Notes under the pieces: generated by a model
Told to the model about the DNA's origin: nothing
Database searches by the model: none
What the model saw: only the letters and a program-made list of their open reading frames with translations
Source: Chrysochromulina parva
Taxonomy: Eukaryota; Haptophyta; Prymnesiales; Chrysochromulinaceae
Assembly (NCBI GenBank): GCA_002887195.1
Contig: PJAB01000541.1
Coordinates: 1-24,393, forward strand
DNA: 24,393 nt
Reading direction: 5' to 3'
Made by a program: the position numbers and the translations under genes
In this document: in pieces, positions 1,846-18,682 of the stretch
Layout: each line of letters starts with the position of its first letter
Position numbering within the stretch: position 1 is the stretch's first letter

Positions 1846-3294
1846 TCACGCCAATTTCTTGAGCTTCTGGCCCGTGTGGTAGACGACGTTGTCCAGCAGA
1901 CCTACAACGGTGTAGATGCCGCCTATGACGGCGCATATCTTTGTGACAAAGGAGGAGAAGCTCTGTGTCTCCTCTTGCACGACGACCATGACCGGCGAGA
2001 TGTCGTAGTGGAAGGCCGCGTTGGGCACCAGATCGGTGTCGACGTACGCGTCCGCCTTGCCCTCATACCATTCTAGCTTGCGTGGCTGGTACTCATTGTA
2101 GTTAGCCTTGTAGAGGTACGTGTGTTGCCGCTCGCCGTCGAGGAACTGGTACTGGAAGGGCACCACCTTGAGGTAATGCTTGAGCGTGGCCAGCTCCTGG
2201 TGCATCCCGTACGAGGCGCTCAGCAGCCCCGAGCGCTGCTCGAGCGGCAGCACGTGCCGCAGTCGGAACGTCTCCTTCAGCGAGGAGAAGATTAACTTGT
2301 CAACGTGGTGCGTCACGTTCATCGTGCGCATGTTGAACGAGTGCTCGGGCGAGGCGGCGGAGATGCGCAGGTTGCCCGGCACGCGCGAGATGCGCACCGA
2401 GCCGGTCAGCATGCACCCTTCGCCCTCGCCCACGCTCGCCTCGACGTGCTGGCCCGCGATCTGTGCGGTACCTAGTCCGCCGCTCGACTTTGCGCGCGGC
2501 AGGCTGGTCTCGATGAACTCAATAAAGGCGTTCGAGTCGCGGTCGCCAAGGTAGTTCTCGTGCGCGTGCAGCGCCTTATGTCGGTAGACGCGGATCGTCG
2601 GGAACGCGTGGATGTGCTGCGTCTGGCATAGGCTGTGCGCGTTGGCGGCGGTGCAGTCGACCTTTGCGACGCGAACCCGCGACGCAAACGGCTTTCCCCT
2701 AAGTTCATTGTGCGTCTTGATCCAGATGGGCTCGAGGCGCTGCGACCACGGGCACCATGGCGCGCCAAAGGCCAGCAGCACGAGCTCAAAGTGGCTCACG
2801 AAGGTCTCAAAGTTGTCCGCGTTGAGCTGCGCAGGCCCGTCATCCTTGCCGAGCGCCTTGAGCATCTCCTCCTCGTCGACTTCGATCTTTTCGTGCTTGA
2901 CCGCCCGTGGCGCATCGACGTGGAACTCTTCCTTGTGGCCAGTGCCGGGAGCGACGCGCACTTTGAGCACATCGCTCGAGAGGTTGGTCAGCGCGGTACC
3001 CATAACGTCGAAGAGGTCGACGCTCGCAAAACGGCATGGCAGCCGCTCCATGGTGATGTTGAAGAAGAGCCTCATTGTCGTGTCGCCCGTGTCGTCGAGC
3101 GCGACGTCGGTACTCGTCGTCATCTTGAGGTATTCCGCGATGTTGGAGACGAACAGGTAGGTCATCAGCCCGGCACACACAAGAGAGAGCGCGCCACCAA
3201 GCCTCGTCGCGTCGGTAAGGTCGTTCGGCACCTTTGGGTACAGGTGGAGCTGCTGCAGAAAAGAGTTCCTTTTGGACGGAGAGAGCGCTGCCAT
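1846..3294 (-). CDS. PDI-C/PDIL5-3/5-4-type protein: ERGIC-N, thioredoxin, ERGIC-C; 482 aa
   Basis: This is a full-length member of the plant/algal PDI family in which a thioredoxin domain sits between the two halves of an ERGIC/Erv41-Erv46-like cargo receptor. A hydrophobic segment at about 33-52 (GGALSLVCAGLMTYLFVSNI) follows the N-terminal FLQQLHLYPKVP motif. The thioredoxin core has LLAFGAPWCPWSQRLEPIW at about 173-191, with CPWS (181-184) in place of CxxC. One redox cysteine is therefore missing, as in plant relatives that carry a CxWS-type site. The ERGIC-C part ends with YDISPVMVVV and a second membrane segment (about 445-470). The last residues, KKLA, form a KKxx di-lysine retrieval signal, predicting cycling between ER and Golgi with both termini cytosolic. 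The likely role is cargo folding or selection in COPII/COPI traffic. There is no intron. Confidence 0.9.
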   Translation of the reverse strand: MAALSPSKRNSFLQQLHLYPKVPNDLTDATRLGGALSLVCAGLMTYLFVSNIAEYLKMTTSTDVALDDTGDTTMRLFFNITMERLPCRFASVDLFDVMGTALTNLSSDVLKVRVAPGTGHKEEFHVDAPRAVKHEKIEVDEEEMLKALGKDDGPAQLNADNFETFVSHFELVLLAFGAPWCPWSQRLEPIWIKTHNELRGKPFASRVRVAKVDCTAANAHSLCQTQHIHAFPTIRVYRHKALHAHENYLGDRDSNAFIEFIETSLPRAKSSGGLGTAQIAGQHVEASVGEGEGCMLTGSVRISRVPGNLRISAASPEHSFNMRTMNVTHHVDKLIFSSLKETFRLRHVLPLEQRSGLLSASYGMHQELATLKHYLKVVPFQYQFLDGERQHTYLYKANYNEYQPRKLEWYEGKADAYVDTDLVPNAAFHYDISPVMVVVQEETQSFSSFVTKICAVIGGIYTVVGLLDNVVYHTGQKLKKLA

Positions 3295-5067: not shown

Positions 5068-7449
5068 ATGCAGGCACATGTATCGGTCGCAATTGACGCG
5101 AGCGGCTCCACCGATAATGCGCCGGTCCCGGCTTTTGAGCTAACGAGCAACGAGGGCGTGCCGCTGGCCGCGCTGCCGCACCTCACCGCGCTCGGCGAGC
5201 GCTGTCAGGTGTACATGCGGCGCGCGCTAGCCGAGCAGGCTGATCCGCGGGCGCACCTCTCGCTCTATCCAGATCCGTTGCAGGGCGTGAGTATCGCGCC
5301 ACGGCCGCGGGCCGACGATGTGCGGCTCGTCTTCTTTGTGCTCGCTTCGCGGCCGAGTGCGCCAGCGCTCGTGTCCCGCCTCGTGCGCGCTCTCTACAGC
5401 CCGGTTCACCTCTTCCTCGTCCACGTCGACCTCAAGGCGAACGCCTCCGTGCACGAGGCGCTCGTTTCATACGCGAGTACGCTTGCCAATGTGCATGTGC
5501 TCAAGACACGGCGGCTCGTGCAGTGGGGTGGCTTCTCGATGGTGACAGCGATGCTGGATGCCATGGCTTCGTTCGTCCAGCGCGTGGACTTCGACTTTTT
5601 CATCAACCTGTCCGACAGCGAGTTGCCCCTGCGCACGAGCGAAGAGCTCACCGCCTTTCTCGGGCGCTTCAAAGGCCGCGCGTTTGTGCACGTCGACCCG
5701 CCGCCATCCGCTGCGGGCCGAAGGGGTGAAGGAGGCGACGCTGCGACGTCAGCAGCGGCGGCGGCGGCGGCGGCAGCAGCTGCAACGGTTGCGCCCCGCT
5801 TGGAGGACGACGTCGAGCTCGACCAGTTCCCATCCCCATCCCCTTTGCAGCGCCGCCGCCGCGCCTTTTGGGGCGGCGCCTTGCGTCGGCACTCCGTCAT
5901 AGAGTGCGGTGGTTTCGGATTCGTCAGTGTCAATTCGAGCGCCAACTCGAGCCTGACGCGCCGCTCGCCCGGTCCGGCTTGCTGTTACGGCCAGTCGGGC
6001 CCGCTGCTCCATGCGGCGGTGCCCTTTGCAGCGCCCGAGCCGCCCCGGCCGTCCTATGGCGAGTTCCGCGGCACGCAGTGGGCCATTCTACCGGCGAGCC
6101 TCTGCAGGTACCTGATTGCGACTGATTGCGGTTGATTGCGGTTGATTGCGGTTGATTGCGGCTGATTGCGGCTGATTGCGGCTGATTGCGACTGTGTGCG
6201 GCTCCTGCCGGCGAGCCTCTGCAGGTACCTGCTCACGGATGCGCACGCGTTGCAGTGGGCGCGCGTCTTCGAGCGTCGGCTGCTCGCGGACGAGTGGTAC
6301 CTACCCACGGTGCTCATGCACTCGCCCTTCCGGCGCACGGCGATCGATCTGCCCCTGCGCTACGAGATGTGGCCGGAGAATGAGGCGGGTGCGCGTGCGC
6401 GCTACTGGGCGTCCCTGCCCGAGGCGGAGTGGGGGGGCGCCATGTTGCTCGATGGGAAGGCGCTGGCGGCCGCGCAGCGTTCGCCCGCGCTCTTCGCCAA
6501 GAAGGTGCTGCCTTCGCACGAGCCCACACTGCTGCGCCGACACGACGCGTGGATGGCGCGCAAGCTCAGCGGGGAGCCTGAGCCGCAGCAGCCGCCGATC
6601 GCCTCGCCACACCTTCGGGCGGACCCGACGCTCGACAGCTTCGGGATGCCCGCGCTTGGCGGCGAGGCGGCGGCTGACGACGGCGAGGCGCCATCCCGAG
6701 CACCCGACCCGGACGTGCCGCCCGAGTCCGAGGAGGAGCAGCGGCAGCAGCGGCAGCAGCGGCAGCAGCGGCAGCAGCGGCAGCTCACGGCGTCGCTAGA
6801 TGCGCCTTCGCGGCGGCGGCGAGGGCGGCGTCGGCGTGTCGCGTCGCTGGTGTTCACCGACGGCTCCTCGTGCTCATGCGCCCCCGAGTGCCGGCCGATC
6901 AAGGCTCCTTGGGCGGCGAGCCCGGAGGATGCCGCCGAGCTGACCGGCATGCCGTTCGGGTCCGGCGATGCTACCGGCGATGCTACCGGCACGCCGTTGG
7001 GGTCCGGCGAAGCTACCAGTACCTGCTGCATGCACGCCGCCGATGGCAGGGCAGCATTGTGCGCGGGGGGCAGTGGGGACGATTTGGGATCGGACTTGAG
7101 AGTGTCCGGTTTGGACATGGCCGCGTTACCGCTGGCCCTCCGCCCATGCCCGCAGCCGCGGCTAGGGGGTAGCGGCTTCAGCTCGGGCGGAGGCCAGCCC
7201 GTTCAAGCCCTCTTCCTCAATAGGTCCCCCTACCCGGTGCGCGTCCTACACGTCGACAGCACAGGGGCTGAGCAGGCACTGCTCTCGCTGCGCCCGGCCG
7301 AGCACGCCGAGGTGGACACGGACAGCCTGCAGGCGTGGCGTGTCCGCACGCTCGGAGGCTCGTTGCTTGTGGAGCTCGATACGACGCCGCGAGTCGACGA
7401 CGCATCAGGGATGGCTGCCATACACATTGAAGATTGCTTAGGGGCGTGA
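5068..7449 (+). CDS. GT14 (core-2/I-branching/xylosyltransferase-like) glycosyltransferase with C-terminal VHL-beta-like domain; join(5068..6107,6225..7449), about 754 aa
   Basis: The N-terminal part carries the GT14 signature: LFLVHVDLKA (115-124), a WGGFS motif (153-157) and FINLSDSELPLRT (178-190). Members transfer sugars from UDP-donors in the Golgi lumen. Without splicing the frame stops at 6133-6135. Removing 6108-6224 joins the two halves seamlessly, giving ...LCRYLLTDAHALQWARVF. Variable inserts follow: an Ala run (about 229-239), a QQR run (DNA 6738-6784) and a Cys/Gly-rich linker. The C-terminus (about 673-735, starting ALFLNRSPYPVRVLHVDS) resembles the beta domain of VHL. ATG 5068 is the first ATG in the frame, but it gives no signal anchor. 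A GT14 enzyme normally has one, so an earlier exon may be missing. It converges on IFT81. GT14 call strong, VHL-like call moderate. Confidence 0.8.
6108..6224 (+). other. 117-bp GT-AG intron made largely of 10-bp tandem repeats
   Basis: The intron starts GTACCTGATT after CTCTGCAG and ends CCTCTGCAG before GTACCTGCTC. It contains an in-frame TGA (6133-6135), and its removal restores the glycosyltransferase frame. A 24-bp direct repeat spans both splice junctions (6091-6114 and 6208-6231), so donor and acceptor copies are the same sequence, offset by exactly 117 bp. The interior is nine 10-bp units, each carrying CTGAT or TTGAT, which resembles a branch-point motif. The length is a multiple of 3. 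Retention would truncate the enzyme. Confidence 0.75.
6111..6200 (+). repeat. 10-bp tandem repeat, nine units, consensus GYTGATTGCG
   Basis: Nine contiguous decamers occupy 6111-6200. The seven inner units (6121-6190) differ only at positions 1-3 (ACTGATTGCG, GTTGATTGCG, GCTGATTGCG), and the last unit (ACTGTGTGCG) is degenerate. They fill most of the intron. Confidence 0.9.
6738..6784 (+). repeat. 9-bp coding repeat (CAGCGGCAG)n
   Basis: About five copies of a 9-bp unit encode a Gln-Arg-Gln run in the linker between the catalytic and VHL-like regions of the glycosyltransferase. It is probably a length-variable, disordered spacer. Confidence 0.85.
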
Positions 7450-7964: not shown

Positions 7965-10040
7965 TCAGAACCCCATGGCTTCGCCGTTGTCGTCGGGCAT
8001 GGTGAAGACGTTGGTTTCCTCCTGCTCCATATTCGCGGCCGCGACGGCCTCGGCGCGCGCGCGCTGTTGCATGTCGACCTTGCAGCGCAGCAGCTTGTGC
8101 AGGTCCTTGAACATCTTGACCTGCTTGGCGTTCGGGCCTTGGTTCTCCTTGATGCGCTTCTGCCGGTCGCGCAGCTCCTTGCTCGCGGCGTCCTGCTGCT
8201 TAATCTTGTAAGCGTACAGCTCCTTGTACGAGCGGACCTGGGTGCCGTCGGGCAAGGTGCGCCGGAAGCGGCCCGCGCGCTCGTCATTGGAGCGCTGCAG
8301 CTTGACCGTCTCGATCTGTCCCAAGGACTCGTAGTAGTACACGTTCGACTCCTCGTGCGCCGCCTCCTTGAGCGCCACCTCCGCCTCCGCCCTGACCGTC
8401 CCTAAGTCGGAATCGATGCCGGCCTTGGTGTTGTTGTACAGCGTTTTCTTCTCGAGGTAGCCCGTCTCCTTGTCGCGCACGTCGGTGCGCATCTTGCGCA
8501 GCTTGACGATCTGCGGCGCGAGCTTGTTCTTGTGCCGCTTGATCTTGTCGTTGATCTCGGCAACCACCGCGGAGAGCTCCTCGAGGGTCTTCCCTTTGAC
8601 CTCATCCACCTCCGCCTTGGCGGCCGACACCTTCTCGAGCTCCTCCTGCGTGTGGCCGTAGCCAGTAAGGCCGCGCCGCGCCTCAACCTCGCCGAGCGTC
8701 GCGGCGAGCGCGCGCTCCTGCTGGCGCAGCAGCCCTTCCGTACGGCTCACCACGCCCCACTCCGCGCGGATCTCAGAAAGCTCCGCGCGGTAGCGCTTGT
8801 ACACCGCCGTCTTGCCGCGCAGCTCGGACGCGTACTTGCGGAATTCGTCGCCCTTGAGCACGGGCCGATCGCTCACCTTGGCGAGGTCGCCCGCCTTCTC
8901 GGCGAGCTCCGCCTCGATGCCGGCGCGCTCGCGCCCTACCGTCGCCAGCCGCTGCGCGATCGCCTCACGCTTCTTGGCCACAAGCGTCGCCTGCTGCCGG
9001 AACATGGCCAGCTTGTCGTCGGGGTTGATGTTCTGCGCGCGCTTGCGCTCCTCGAGTTGCTGCACGGCGCGCGCCATCTGCTTCTGCTGCTGCTCCATCT
9101 GTGCCACCTCCACCTCGTTGACGGACGGCTCAGCAAGCACCTGCTGCAGCTCCTCCATGCGCCGCTGCTTTAGCTGGATCTCCTTGGGCAGCGTCTCGAG
9201 CGCGCGCTGCTCGAGGCTGTCGACCTCGCGCTCGAGCGCCTCGAGCGTCTGGCGCGCGTCCTGCGAGCTCGACGAGCGCTCGGAGCGCTGCGCGTTCAGC
9301 CGCTCCACCATCCCGTTCAGCCGCGCCTCTGCCTGCAGCAGCTGCGCCTTTTGGTCCTTCAGCCGGTCCTGCAGCTTCACCTGCTCGTCCTGCTGCAGCC
9401 GCAGCTTGTGCGTCGCCTCGAACATCTCCTCGAAGCGCTCGTGGTCGGCGAGCTTCGTCTTCAGGTTCTCGACCTTCTGCTCGAGCATGCCCTTGTCCTC
9501 CTCCATCTGCATGATCGCCTTCTTGATCTCGTTGGGCGAGATGAGCTGCGACTTGTACTTATCCGACGTCTTGTGCACCTCCTTGAACTCCTCCTGCAGG
9601 TCCTTGTAGTTCTGGTAGACTTCGACGACCTCCTCGTCGGTGAACATGTGTTCGGGCACCTCCACGTTGACCAGGAATCGCGCCAGGTACGCGCGCTTCT
9701 GCAGCTCAGGCAGCCGCTGCAGCATCCACGCGAGCATCGGGTAGATGAGCTGCGGCTCGCCGTGGAGCAGCGCCGCCTTGGCCTGCTGCATCTCGATCGA
9801 GATCTTGTAGTTAAGCACCCGCATGAATTCGAGCATGCGCGTCGCCGTCGCGTCAGGCGTCTCGTCGCGCAGGTCAATGCGGTGCTGAGACGACAGGTTT
9901 GCCATCACCTCGTTGACCACTTCGAGAAGCTCGAAAGGCGACTTTTCGTCGAAAGCAACCATGGTCAGCTGCATCTGGAAGGGTGGATCGTTGAGCCGGT
10001 CGACGATGAACTGGAGCTCGCCGCCCATCTGGCCCGCCAT
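7965..10040 (-). CDS. IFT81: Intraflagellar transport protein 81 (IFT81), 691 aa
   Basis: This is a full-length IFT-B core subunit, close to the usual length of about 676-700 aa. The N-terminal calponin-homology-like domain (about 1-130) starts with ELQFIVDRLNDPPF and ends with the highly conserved block LQRLPELQKRAYLARFLV (about 108-125). In studied organisms this domain binds tubulin as cargo together with IFT74. The rest is almost entirely charged, heptad-rich coiled coil, where the IFT74 partner packs. It acts in building and maintaining cilia. The gene is a single uninterrupted frame. The ATG at 10040 gives MAGQMGGELQF, directly before the conserved domain. It is divergent from the gene starting at 10235. 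Large opposite-strand frames across it are shadows of the coiled-coil codon pattern. Confidence 0.95.
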   Translation of the reverse strand: MAGQMGGELQFIVDRLNDPPFQMQLTMVAFDEKSPFELLEVVNEVMANLSSQHRIDLRDETPDATATRMLEFMRVLNYKISIEMQQAKAALLHGEPQLIYPMLAWMLQRLPELQKRAYLARFLVNVEVPEHMFTDEEVVEVYQNYKDLQEEFKEVHKTSDKYKSQLISPNEIKKAIMQMEEDKGMLEQKVENLKTKLADHERFEEMFEATHKLRLQQDEQVKLQDRLKDQKAQLLQAEARLNGMVERLNAQRSERSSSSQDARQTLEALEREVDSLEQRALETLPKEIQLKQRRMEELQQVLAEPSVNEVEVAQMEQQQKQMARAVQQLEERKRAQNINPDDKLAMFRQQATLVAKKREAIAQRLATVGRERAGIEAELAEKAGDLAKVSDRPVLKGDEFRKYASELRGKTAVYKRYRAELSEIRAEWGVVSRTEGLLRQQERALAATLGEVEARRGLTGYGHTQEELEKVSAAKAEVDEVKGKTLEELSAVVAEINDKIKRHKNKLAPQIVKLRKMRTDVRDKETGYLEKKTLYNNTKAGIDSDLGTVRAEAEVALKEAAHEESNVYYYESLGQIETVKLQRSNDERAGRFRRTLPDGTQVRSYKELYAYKIKQQDAASKELRDRQKRIKENQGPNAKQVKMFKDLHKLLRCKVDMQQRARAEAVAAANMEQEETNVFTMPDDNGEAMGF

Positions 10041-12311: not shown

Positions 12312-14318
12312 ATGGAGCGCATGTCCGCCAACGGCGACTGCCTCCCTCCTGAGCTCAAGGCGGCAGAGCCCCAAACGGAGCCGATGACGGTCGACGAGTA
12401 TATGATGCAGCACATCCCCGGGATTGAGGCGGAGATTAATCTGTTCCTCGAAGCTCTGATGGCCGCTCGTCCTGCGAATTCCATCCAATTCATGGCAGAG
12501 TACTTGTCAAAACGAGGCGGTGGACAGGAGACGCCTCAACGTTCATTGTCGCTCAACGTTGAGGCGGCAAGCGGCGCGTCCCCATCCGAGTCCTTTGCGC
12601 GGCACAGTCCAAACGTTTCGTTTAGGCAAACTAAGGTCAACCGAGATATTGTAATCACGGTTAACCTGAGCGCGAGGGCGCAATGGGTGAAGGCCTTCCT
12701 CGACTGCGATCCGCGGCGGCATTTGTGCGATTATTTCAAGCCGGGCGATGAGCGCGGTCCATTTGGTTATCTGCGTGCCCAAGGCTTGAGGCCACGGGGG
12801 CCGCCTTCCCACCACTTTGCAGTTTGGCGGCCGACGAGTCTCGACGCGATGCGGATGCTCTTCGACGGCTCGGCCTGTGGAAAGGCCCTCAACATCAAGG
12901 GCAAGTCAGCCAGGAGCGGCATCCTGTCTGGCTTTGTGCCCTTCTTGCAGATTGACAACGAGGCCGACAAGGGCAAGGTGGGCACGTCTCCGTCGGACGC
13001 GCGCAGCCGGGTCTTCTTCCGCACGAAGGCGGCGCGCGACAGCGTACGAGCGCGACTCGAGCCCATACTCGCCGAAATAGAGGCGCGTGCTACCAAAGCC
13101 ACGCAGCTGATGACCGGCTGGAAGTTGGGCAAAATGGCGCTCGACGAGTATCAACGCGATGAATGTCTGCATGACTTGGGCTTGCTGTGGAAGATGAAGG
13201 CGGGGCATGAAACGCTGATCGACATCGATGAGCACGCGCGGCCCGAGGTGCCCGCGCTTAACCAGGCGTATGGGCTCGACATGCCCGAGAGACTCCTCTG
13301 GCAAGCCTTTGTGGTGCGTCAAGACATCAGCCATCCGCCCGGCTGGGAACCGGGCCGACCGAGCGAGCCAGCGTTCATGGACCTGAATATGCAGGCGATG
13401 CGCGAGAAGAAGAAGCCGCTGGCCGCCATCTGGCAGTACGACCGCGAGAACCCTATGAACCCTCGGGGACTGCTGATGGCCCACGAAGAGGAGATTGGGG
13501 TACGGCCAGTCGCCTCCGACATCGACGCCTTCCTCATTGGCAGTAAGGGGATGGAAGTCGGTCCTCCGCTGCCCGACGACCAGCTCAAGCTTGCGCATTG
13601 GTGCATCACCAACGTGGCCGGCGTGCTCGAGACGCCCATGTCGCAGGGGTGGACCAAGCGATGGCTCGACGTGCTGAAGCACGAGACAGTCATCAACGCG
13701 GTGCCGAAACACTCGATGCCAGAGTTCGGCTACGGAGATACGCGCTCGTACGACATCATCGTCAAGATCGTGCAGCGGCTCAACTTCTCGGGCGCCGTGC
13801 GCCACGGCGCCGAGTGCTTCAATTTCTATTTCCCACAGGAGCTGGATACGGAGTTCCTCGTGTGCTGGGAAGGATTCAAGGATTACGTGCCGCTGAACGT
13901 GCCGTGGGCCTACGTGGACCAGGCCGGCCTCAAGCACTTCCTGATGGCGCGCTTGGAGGAGGGCTACTCATTCCCTCTCAATCCCAAGTGGATCCTGTGC
14001 GACCCGGGCTTCCGCGACATTTTCGACGTGATGCAGAGCGCGCCGCACGCGCAGGAGTCGCTCGAGTCTTGGCTGCCCGCTGATCTCCGCAAGCGGATCA
14101 ACGAGTTGCTGAAAGCCTACCCTGAAGGCTTCAAGCCCGTCGCGAAGGAGGGCGAGAGCATGATCATGATCGACAATGACATGGCTGAATGGGAGCTCAG
14201 GCGCCACGCGGCCCTCGCGCGCGCCAAGGCCAAGCTCAAGGCTATCCACAAGTTCAACATGCTTATCCGAAGAAGATCGATGGATACGGGATTTCCCGCC
14301 GTTGCTCCCCTGTCTTAG
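12312..14318 (+). CDS. Class II (edema-factor/CyaA-type) adenylyl cyclase-like protein with N-terminal RIIa/DPY-30-like docking motif, 668 aa
   Basis: Residues 26-66 look like an RIIa/DPY-30 dimerisation-docking fold: an alpha-helical run, then INLFLEALMAARPANSIQFM and AEYL. The central and C-terminal parts match the catalytic architecture of class II adenylyl cyclases, which make cAMP from ATP. GKALNIKGKS supplies two lysines seven apart (K191, K198) and is followed by GFVPF. SDIDAFLIG supplies the metal-binding D-x-D pair (D403, D405). RHGAECFNF supplies His498, Glu501 and Asn504 in the expected i, i+3, i+6 spacing. All expected catalytic positions are filled, so activity is plausible. A basic amphipathic helix at 629-655 could bind calmodulin (inference). 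There is no signal peptide or toxin-delivery domain, so it is an intracellular signalling enzyme rather than a secreted toxin. There is no intron, and base composition is like its neighbours. ATG 12312 is the first ATG in frame; 12321 is an alternative. Confidence 0.8.
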   Translation: MERMSANGDCLPPELKAAEPQTEPMTVDEYMMQHIPGIEAEINLFLEALMAARPANSIQFMAEYLSKRGGGQETPQRSLSLNVEAASGASPSESFARHSPNVSFRQTKVNRDIVITVNLSARAQWVKAFLDCDPRRHLCDYFKPGDERGPFGYLRAQGLRPRGPPSHHFAVWRPTSLDAMRMLFDGSACGKALNIKGKSARSGILSGFVPFLQIDNEADKGKVGTSPSDARSRVFFRTKAARDSVRARLEPILAEIEARATKATQLMTGWKLGKMALDEYQRDECLHDLGLLWKMKAGHETLIDIDEHARPEVPALNQAYGLDMPERLLWQAFVVRQDISHPPGWEPGRPSEPAFMDLNMQAMREKKKPLAAIWQYDRENPMNPRGLLMAHEEEIGVRPVASDIDAFLIGSKGMEVGPPLPDDQLKLAHWCITNVAGVLETPMSQGWTKRWLDVLKHETVINAVPKHSMPEFGYGDTRSYDIIVKIVQRLNFSGAVRHGAECFNFYFPQELDTEFLVCWEGFKDYVPLNVPWAYVDQAGLKHFLMARLEEGYSFPLNPKWILCDPGFRDIFDVMQSAPHAQESLESWLPADLRKRINELLKAYPEGFKPVAKEGESMIMIDNDMAEWELRRHAALARAKAKLKAIHKFNMLIRRRSMDTGFPAVAPLS

Positions 14319-17889: not shown

Positions 17890-18091
17890 CCCGAGTTCAA
17901 TACACGTGAGTCGTGAGTGTTGAAGACGCTTCTGCCTGAGTATCGAGGTGTTCTTGCTTGCTTGAGTTGCTCTAGCAGACTACTGTGATTTGGTCAATCA
18001 ACTCTTCGTGCGGCGCAGCGGAACGAACGATCGTTTCGAGTGCCGTACCGGTACTATTTTAGACCATCGCTGTTGCTGCCGCAGCAACAAA

Positions 18092-18682
18092 ATGGCGCAG
18101 CCGTCTTGCAAGCCCAAAAGCTCGACCGAGGCACCCTGGGGCTCCTTCGACGTGCCGCAGACCCTGACGAGCACCTATGCCTCGACGTACATCGATGCAG
18201 GCATGTGCCGGCCACGCGAAAAGATCATTCCCAAGCCTGCGCACGAATGGGGGCACGACTTGAAGTTCGAGGGCCGCTCCACGGCGCAGGACGCCTACAC
18301 GAACCACAATTCGTACATGATGCGACCGAGCTGCAAGCCAGAGCCCAAAGTCGTGGCGACCCCGTGGATGACGCCGCTCACCACCACGGCGGGTTCGCAC
18401 TTCACCGCTTATTCGGGAACTGCGAGGACAGTCCCCTTCCGGCCGAAGGCTTCGACCGTCGACCTCGATGTGAAGTTCGAGACGCGCTCGACACAGCAGG
18501 ATGCGTACCCGGCAATGGGGTATGTCAGACCGCCCAAACCCTTCCTTCCGAAGGAGCAGCCGCGCGACAACCTACCCTTCGAGCACACTTCTACTTCGCG
18601 CGCGGCCTACATCCCGCATGAGGTGATGCCCTACGTAAAAGCACGGAAGCCCTCGGGTGCAGGGGACCCATTTGGAGCATGA
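18092..18682 (+). CDS. SAXO/FAM154-like axonemal microtubule protein, 196 aa
   Basis: The protein is basic, Pro/Thr/Tyr-rich and built of a repeated module: LKFEGRSTAQDAY, VKFETRSTQQDAY and LPFEHTSTSRAAY, each followed by an RP/KP segment. This matches the Mn modules of stabiliser-of-axonemal-microtubules (SAXO) proteins, which bind microtubules of axonemes and basal bodies. Other periodic elements are SCKPKSS and SCKPEPK. The ATG at 18092 (MAQPSCKP) is preferred because the upstream in-frame extension is unlike the rest and has no other ATG. It has no signal peptide and is a single exon. The N-terminal Cys-rich signature typical of SAXO is only partly visible, so the exact family member is uncertain. 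Confidence 0.75.
   Translation: MAQPSCKPKSSTEAPWGSFDVPQTLTSTYASTYIDAGMCRPREKIIPKPAHEWGHDLKFEGRSTAQDAYTNHNSYMMRPSCKPEPKVVATPWMTPLTTTAGSHFTAYSGTARTVPFRPKASTVDLDVKFETRSTQQDAYPAMGYVRPPKPFLPKEQPRDNLPFEHTSTSRAAYIPHEVMPYVKARKPSGAGDPFGA

Follow-up and report, generated by a model that had tools for sequence, protein, structure and literature searches.

The gene P0001, which lies in the window (the whole stretch of 24,393 nucleotides analysed here), probably encodes a native class II nucleotidyl cyclase of the cytosol, in what looks like a haptophyte alga; its N-terminal D/D (RIIa/DPY-30-type)-like segment would dock the enzyme to a scaffold helix (Table 1). From sequence comparison and structure prediction, the assignment of its main domain to the class II (edema factor/CyaA/ExoY-type) nucleotidyl cyclases holds on two grounds, the fold family and the active-site residues.

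Table 1. Features of P0001 and of one neighbouring gene, with positions in the window
Feature	Position	Strand	Basis or remark
D/D-like + class II nucleotidyl cyclase gene (P0001)	12312..14318	+	668 aa, intronless
D/D (RIIa/DPY-30-type)-like segment, residues 25-68; core helices 38-50 and 57-68	12384..12515	+	sub-threshold Pfam, low pLDDT
Low-confidence linker, residues 69-120	12516..12671	+	without predicted structure; pLDDT <50 at 69-118
Class II nucleotidyl cyclase domain, residues 121-658	12672..14285	+	alignment, profiles, AlphaFold2, Foldseek
R173, WRP motif, putative phosphate-contact Arg position	12828..12830	+	alignment; role by ExoY analogy
Motif I, residues 190-200 with K191, K196, K198	12879..12911	+	ExoY-type Lys at +5
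CB/LID lobe, about residues 196-400	12897..13511	+	ExoY analogy; boundary inferred
D403-x-D405, putative metal-binding aspartates	13518..13526	+	alignment; DxD spacing as in edema factor and Pa-ExoY
H498-E501-N504, switch-B motif HxxExxN	13803..13823	+	alignment; His-Asn spacing 6
C-terminal basic amphipathic helix, residues 622-658	14175..14285	+	one helix in AlphaFold2; candidate activator-binding or regulatory element, role inferred
IFT81 neighbour gene	7965-10040	-	same contig as P0001

A class II cyclase domain in an algal gene

In the open reading frames of the window, the frame of P0001 is unbroken from its start ATG at 12312 to a stop codon ending at 14318, and two ENA proteins, P0002 and P0003 (96% and 93% identical to it, respectively), also hold the docking part and the cyclase in one frame. 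No signal peptide is evident at the N-terminus of P0001 on reading by eye. The contig, from an assembly of 45 Mb in 2199 contigs, also carries IFT81 and genes for an ERGIC/thioredoxin protein, a branching-type glycosyltransferase, a BTB-BACK protein and a phosphopantetheinyl transferase, together with a SAXO-like protein whose match lies below the Pfam cut-off. Among relatives of IFT81 bearing an organism name, the nearest comes from Calcidiscus leptoporus (55%, with 77% of the query covered); that of Emiliania huxleyi reaches 43% with 80% covered, and some animal proteins (34-39%) fall between these two haptophytes by E-value. From this the host is taken to be a haptophyte.

Across 121 aligned family rows, the putative active-site positions are near-invariant: K191, K196 (the Lys at motif I +5) and K198 are each kept in 118 rows (three gaps), R173 in 115 (five gaps, one Gln), D403 in 119 (one Gly, one gap), D405 in 119 (one Glu, one gap), H498 in 119 (one Tyr, one Ala), E501 in 119 (two gaps) and N504 in 120 (one gap). 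Once the eight rows with gaps at these positions are set aside, the full nine-residue catalytic set is present in 112 of 113 rows, and the sole departure, P0033, differs at three catalytic positions together. The role assigned here to E501, the Glu of HxxExxN, is one that we assume. A previous, sequence-only reading of the same DNA had picked out K191/K198, D403/D405 and H498/E501/N504 as a class II catalytic set; these residues were found where it had placed them, and R173 and K196 extend its list.

Counterparts of several of these residues have been described, namely the phosphate-contact Arg (Arg-63 in PMC8595890, R64 in PMC9223806), the metal-binding aspartates (D491-D493 of edema factor, D212-D214 of Pa-ExoY; PMC9223806) and the His/Asn pairs (H577/N583 of edema factor, H291/N297 of Pa-ExoY; PMC9223806, PMC10553838). 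With the ExoY types of Pseudomonas and Vibrio MARTX, P0001 shares the K-x4-K-x-K form of motif I (Lys at +5), an Arg 18 residues before the first Lys of that motif, the DxD, a His and an Asn 6 apart, and Foldseek matches (8br0, 8bo1, 7p1g). Unlike P0001, the ExoY types are bacterial, secreted and actin-activated, and identity in the structural match is about 10-11%; D/D, CNBD and EF-hand modules are not among the features described for them in the available portions of these accounts. With edema factor (EF) and CyaA, likeness is found at the level of the fold (Foldseek) and of the motif I sequence profile, but these are secreted toxins dependent on host calmodulin, with a His at motif I +5.

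The Pfam profile PF03497, put forward as a check in the sequence-only reading, recognises the family (at E<=0.1 it picks up 60 of the 63 members, the best being P0009 at 2e-7 and 31.6 bits, above the cut-off) but leaves P0001 at 14.2 bits, against a curated cut-off of 25. Compared with PDB sequences, the family profile retrieves class II enzymes alone up to E=1, through motif I, with edema factor best (E=2.7e-6) and ExoY types from 0.11. A profile of the D403-H498 half (residues 366-525; 12 rows) retrieves no class II enzyme from the PDB and one unrelated match (E=1.5), and an NCBIfam search gave no match.

The AlphaFold2 model of P0001, built from 63 alignment rows, has a mean pLDDT of 83.3 (>90 in most ten-residue blocks of 131-650) and a pTM of 0.79. 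Among the best 50 of 66 Foldseek matches of this model in the PDB, the top 20 all belong to class II, being edema factor, CyaA or ExoY structures, with best E-values of 1.8e-5 for EF and 1.7e-4 for CyaA and probabilities of 0.23-1.00, and unrelated folds appear from E=0.61. The superposition itself is poor: the target-normalised TM does not exceed 0.40, and the rmsd of the class II rows is about 14-25. The overlay on known class II enzymes that had been proposed as a check is thus favourable in its ranking and wanting in its fit: the model indicates the class II fold family, while the lobe geometry, including the relative placement of lobes and inserts, is unconfirmed because TM-scores are low and rmsd is large.

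A D/D-like segment at the N-terminus

Upstream of the linker, AlphaFold2 places helices at residues 27-34, 38-50 and 57-68, with a block mean pLDDT of 47-58. With moderate confidence, and on sequence comparison, the helix pair at residues 36-68 most resembles the D/D domains of PKA-R and DPY-30, being D/D-like and no Pfam member. Residues 1-81 have two Pfam matches alone, both below the cut-off, namely Dpy-30 (E=0.068, 13.3 vs 22 bits) and RIIa (E=0.14, 12.3 vs 22.4 bits). The segment is carried by three near-identical sequences only (P0001-P0003); a profile of the three orthologues finds the PKA-R D/D domain in the PDB at E=0.0088, followed by dpy-30 (1.4) and the ciliary protein CATIP (1.6), the matched part of which is presumably D/D-like, and no others up to E=10. 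The P0001 segment alone finds PKA-R (6xqk) at 0.013, with two designed helical proteins next in line (0.14 and 4.8); since a single sequence also matches designed proteins, the signal is in part that of a generic helix. The docking helices suggested by the sequence-only reading are moderately supported by the predicted helices and the PKA-R profile match, and by RIIa and Dpy-30 being the only Pfam families to answer, but fall short in Pfam score and in pLDDT.

Further comparison was made with a home-made D/D profile of four of the seven RIIa matches in the genome, the other three lacking a clear frame. Against these four domains, hhalign places the segment in register with E=0.00073 and a probability of just 26%; the corresponding HMM gives the P0001 segment 6.6 bits and P0127 13.5, and when residues 23-72 were shuffled 2000 times, three of the shuffled sequences scored at least as high as the segment. 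The window segment is absent from the Pfam match lists of the genome for RIIa (7 matches, 5 above the cut-off) and Dpy-30 (17 matches, 9 above). Several RIIa proteins of this genome bear EF-hands, as read by eye. The C-terminus of P0010 was considered as a further D/D domain and not counted, with no support from Pfam and -0.8 bits from the home-made profile. Like PKA-R/DPY-30 domains, the segment is a predicted helix pair with a P-x-N/D...F-x-A-x-Y core, its best match being 6xqk; unlike in PKA-R, it is fused to a cyclase instead of CNBDs, or stands alongside CNBDs (P0127), and the similarity is sub-threshold. A tie to the cilium, suggested by the D/D type and by ciliary neighbours, would be a guess, and the anchoring to a PKA scaffold put forward in the sequence-only reading stays conjectural; a PF06098 (RSP3) search of the genome gave no match, but its control was silent too.

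What do the closest relatives carry in place of this segment? On a careful tree of 32 rows, picked by hand from 118, P0001-P0003 have P0004 as their sister (support 100/96) and P0005 as the next branch (99/96), both of these starting with MGCGAS. The 13-row clade around P0001 includes six rows with an MGCGAS-like start, three with the D/D segment and four with neither, and the three-way N-terminal label changes 5 times on the whole 32-row tree. A Met-Gly start with a Cys at positions 3-6 (MGCGAS, for example), which we take to be a myristoylation/palmitoylation pattern, is found in 16 of 130 family proteins. D/D docking may have taken the place of an acyl anchor, in an exchange for which the counts do not decide between gain and loss. 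On a quick tree of 118 rows (13 fragment rows of the 130 left out, one model added), D/D domains correspond to two changes and fused CNBDs to one, P0088 and P0116, without labelled CNBD, being left out.

A eukaryotic family with diverse modules

The family to which P0001 belongs is large and little studied, and occurs in photosynthetic protists; of 8000 candidates that were scored, 568 proteins match at E<=0.01. The 120 matches listed include proteins of Cymbomonas, Effrenium, Durusdinium, Symbiodinium, Polarella and Cylindrotheca, as well as two transcriptome entries that we take to be Attheya and Triceratium (genus names completed by us), and the named homologues among them are all eukaryotes: dinoflagellates, diatoms and one prasinophyte. 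Scans with the family alignment gave 40 pattern matches in bacterial and archaeal genomes of GTDB (three degenerate patterns, of limited reach) and 43 in the viral IMG/VR (two degenerate patterns, also of limited reach), 0 of either set being confirmed by tblastn. A bacterial or viral origin was considered and set aside, these scans having yielded no tblastn-confirmed relative.

Precomputed CNBDs are present in 34 of the 120 homologues among the matches listed (hand count). A pattern search placed the last phosphate-binding cassette in 35 of 38 CNBD proteins, at a distance of 101-114 residues from the motif I that follows (32 of these cassettes with FGE, three degenerate), and RAA, presumably the mark of a cAMP-type cassette in these fused CNBDs, occurs in 24 of the 38. 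The CNBD-cyclase fusions form one dinoflagellate-type clade, one member of which adds a D/D-like segment of its own. P0127 combines a Dpy-30-like segment (E=0.0035, below the Pfam cut-off) with two CNBDs and the cyclase, so the association of docking and cyclase, for which the sequence-only reading knew no described enzyme, is not a one-off. Six DEP domains accompany the cyclase in P0129, and a hydrophobic N-terminal stretch is seen in some members (e.g., P0054 and P0072).

Two paralogue loci of the same genome, C679 and C1052, are interrupted by GT-AG introns and carry a centrin-like EF-hand pair, inserted after the motif I half and ahead of the DxD half at a site aligned with about residues 250-317 of P0001. 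By analogy with the limits of the ExoY LID (K86 to M209; PMC10553838), this pair is located in what corresponds to the LID lobe. In the C679 model the inserted pair matches Pfam EF-hand_7 (E=1.7e-15); in C1052, whose gene model stops before the H-E-N part, it was seen by eye. The exon boundaries were drawn by us, one exon combining cyclase sequence with the first EF-hand, and the exon after it combining the tail of the second EF-hand with further cyclase sequence; because adjoining exons each hold both kinds of sequence, the fusion is independent of any one splice choice. EF-hands are absent at this site of the alignment in the nearest relatives, P0030 and P0122, and 0 of 22 matches to the EF-hand paralogue model have a precomputed Pfam EF-hand, candidates having probably been crowded by EF-hand words. 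The genome also has 101 CNBD matches and 10 matches to class III cyclases (PF00211), from which the same kind of reaction is expected, with an unrelated fold and a dimeric active site.

In its available text, a 2022 review confines class II cyclases to secreted bacterial enzymes (PMC9223806); P0001, assigned to class II by its fold family and active-site residues, falls outside the class in the review's sense as a eukaryotic gene with no evident signal peptide. A structure-clustering study has reported algal proteins with partial edema-factor-domain matches and raised toxin systems in this respect (PMC10584675), and its eukaryote-enriched AFDB cluster is very probably the same family as P0001, in line with the earlier surmise that such domains might already be annotated in other protists. 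The mention is brief and, in the part available, does not cover catalytic residues, module fusions or the docking domain. Among the openly accessible papers searched, this study alone was seen to mention an algal branch, and no further description of class II cyclases as a family of eukaryotes was recognised.

Catalysis, docking and rival readings

In the reading that we prefer, NTP would be bound by the CA and LID lobes through R173, K191 and K198, D403 and D405 would hold one or two metals, H498 and N504 would place ribose and base, and a cyclic nucleotide would be released, most likely cAMP, with cGMP or others possible. The N-terminal helix pair would dimerise as a D/D domain and clip the enzyme onto an amphipathic scaffold helix, thereby taking a targeting role probably played by acyl anchors in the closest relatives. 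Any switch that works by way of the LID or of the basic helix at the C-terminus would likewise be part of this proposal, as would the docking partner, the location and the direction of the module swap.

Motif I +5 is a His in the calmodulin-activated EF/CyaA and a Lys in the actin-activated ExoY (PMC10553838). K196 being the ExoY-type Lys, calmodulin control, which had been entertained on the toxin analogy, cannot be read from it, and cAMP cannot be assumed as the sole product; the class II fold family and the active-site set of the earlier reading are supported. The C-terminal basic helix noted earlier is recovered as a single predicted helix, in which residues 637-654 have a net charge of +7, the highest for any 18-mer of P0001 (tied with overlapping 18-mers), and for the aligned C-terminal segment the mean over the measurable rows (99 of 121) is +5.8.

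A guanylyl- or broad nucleotidyl cyclase, not an adenylyl cyclase, would be a rather unlikely identity for P0001 (itself without a CNBD) given the CNBDs of its relatives, mostly with the RAA that we take as cAMP-type. The replacement of the EF/CyaA His by K196 and the in vitro preference of Pa-ExoY for GTP (PMC8524455) speak for it, but Vn-ExoY, also with Lys at +5, is reported to make cAMP, not cGMP (PMC8595890). Is the D/D-like segment simply an ordinary helical hairpin or coiled coil on an active cyclase? This is unlikely, even though it would account for the sub-threshold Pfam scores, the low pLDDT, the absence from the RIIa and Dpy-30 lists of the genome and the designed-protein matches: all three PDB profile matches are D/D proteins or a ciliary protein, the hhalign match is in register, few shuffles reach the score of the segment, and P0127 has a clearer, yet still sub-threshold, Dpy-30 match.

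That P0001 is part of an algal toxin system, exported or injected against competitors or grazers, appears very unlikely. Its fold and catalytic set match those of bacterial toxins, the idea is in print (PMC10584675), and the hydrophobic N-terminal stretch of P0054 and P0072 leaves room for the export of such members; P0001, however, has no evident signal peptide, and relatives bear intracellular modules (CNBDs, EF-hands, DEP domains, acylation-like starts), so that endogenous signalling fits better than a toxin. Even less credence is given to a pseudoenzyme serving as scaffold or nucleotide sensor only, which is highly improbable with an active-site set from which, among the 113 gap-free rows, P0033 alone departs. 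As for a bacterial contaminant or a toxin gene acquired very recently by horizontal transfer, it would suit an intronless gene of a class otherwise described as bacterial (PMC9223806), but is extremely improbable in view of a contig shared with IFT81 and other eukaryotic genes, of paralogues with introns in the genome, of GTDB and IMG/VR scans with few degenerate patterns and nothing confirmed, and of named listed homologues that are all eukaryotes. The native eukaryotic context, as opposed to toxin delivery, that the sequence-only reading had advanced is in this way upheld by the neighbours, the paralogues and the signalling modules of the relatives.

Beyond the preferred reading of P0001, the chances seem evenly divided that class II cyclases form a native signalling system in photosynthetic protists, with CNBD sensors, Ca2+ sensing by EF-hands in the LID, acyl anchors, and D/D domains on two separate branches. 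In such a system, the external eukaryotic protein that steadies the lobes of the toxins (calmodulin, actin) would correspond to a logic that some algal enzymes hold in cis. The family architectures speak against the toxin reading of algal edema-factor-like proteins, and the algal branch offers a native setting for asking how the class II fold switches on: with the EF-hand paralogues, in-cis control of such an enzyme by Ca2+ can be tested directly, and with the D/D segment so can scaffold targeting. With a large branch in eukaryotes that keeps its active site intact and bears host-type regulatory modules, class II cyclases would become a widespread form of plankton signalling.

Class II cyclase paralogues and other family architectures

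In two paralogues of the window cyclase from the same genome (loci L008 and L009, on contigs C679 and C1052), the LID region of the cyclase, the lobe named by analogy with ExoY, is interrupted by a pair of centrin-like EF-hands. The model from C679 retains the motifs that hold the catalytic Lys, Asp and His residues. Among database homologues, a single chain (P0127) joins a Dpy-30-like segment, two cyclic-nucleotide-binding domains and a class II cyclase, an arrangement like that of PKA-R with a cyclase attached. In P0129 the cyclase is preceded by six DEP domains, and P0009 apparently has two tandem cyclase domains, its sequence having been read by eye.

Among the 113 gap-free rows (of 121 aligned) compared at nine catalytic positions, the DxD and H are altered (to G, E and Y) in the homologue P0033 only, which may be a pseudoenzyme, or else a misaligned or misassembled row.

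Features of the window and of the paralogue loci
Feature	Location	Strand	Remarks
ERGIC_N - thioredoxin domain - COPII-coated ERV, single ORF	window 1846-3294	-	Pfam
Likely glycosyltransferase-gene intron	window 6091-6231		repeats and flanking direct duplication
IFT81	window 7965-10040	-	Pfam
SAXO1-2-like gene	window 17990-18682	+	Pfam E=0.0012, under cut-off
Class II cyclase paralogue with EF-hand pair and introns	C679 (L008)	-	gene model, 815 aa
Class II cyclase paralogue with EF-hand pair and introns	C1052 (L009)	-	incomplete near contig end

A repeat-bearing intron

The likely glycosyltransferase intron holds a series of 10-bp repeats resembling CTGATTGCGG, with 8 overlapping matches of 20 bases each. 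A direct duplication containing AGGT flanks the repeat run (window 6091-6114 and 6208-6231), and the intron looks as if it were born by duplication. The 30-base form of the repeat has 291 matches genome-wide, versus 0 for the reversed control, and similar words also occur in introns of the cyclase paralogues.

Cilium-related neighbours and RIIa proteins

Two axoneme or cilium genes, SAXO1-2-like and IFT81, lie near the cyclase. Elsewhere in the genome, four proteins (L010, L012, L013 and L014) combine an RIIa domain with EF-hand-like loops, the latter read by eye, and resemble radial spoke protein 7 in this; they are possible neighbours of the D/D cyclase.
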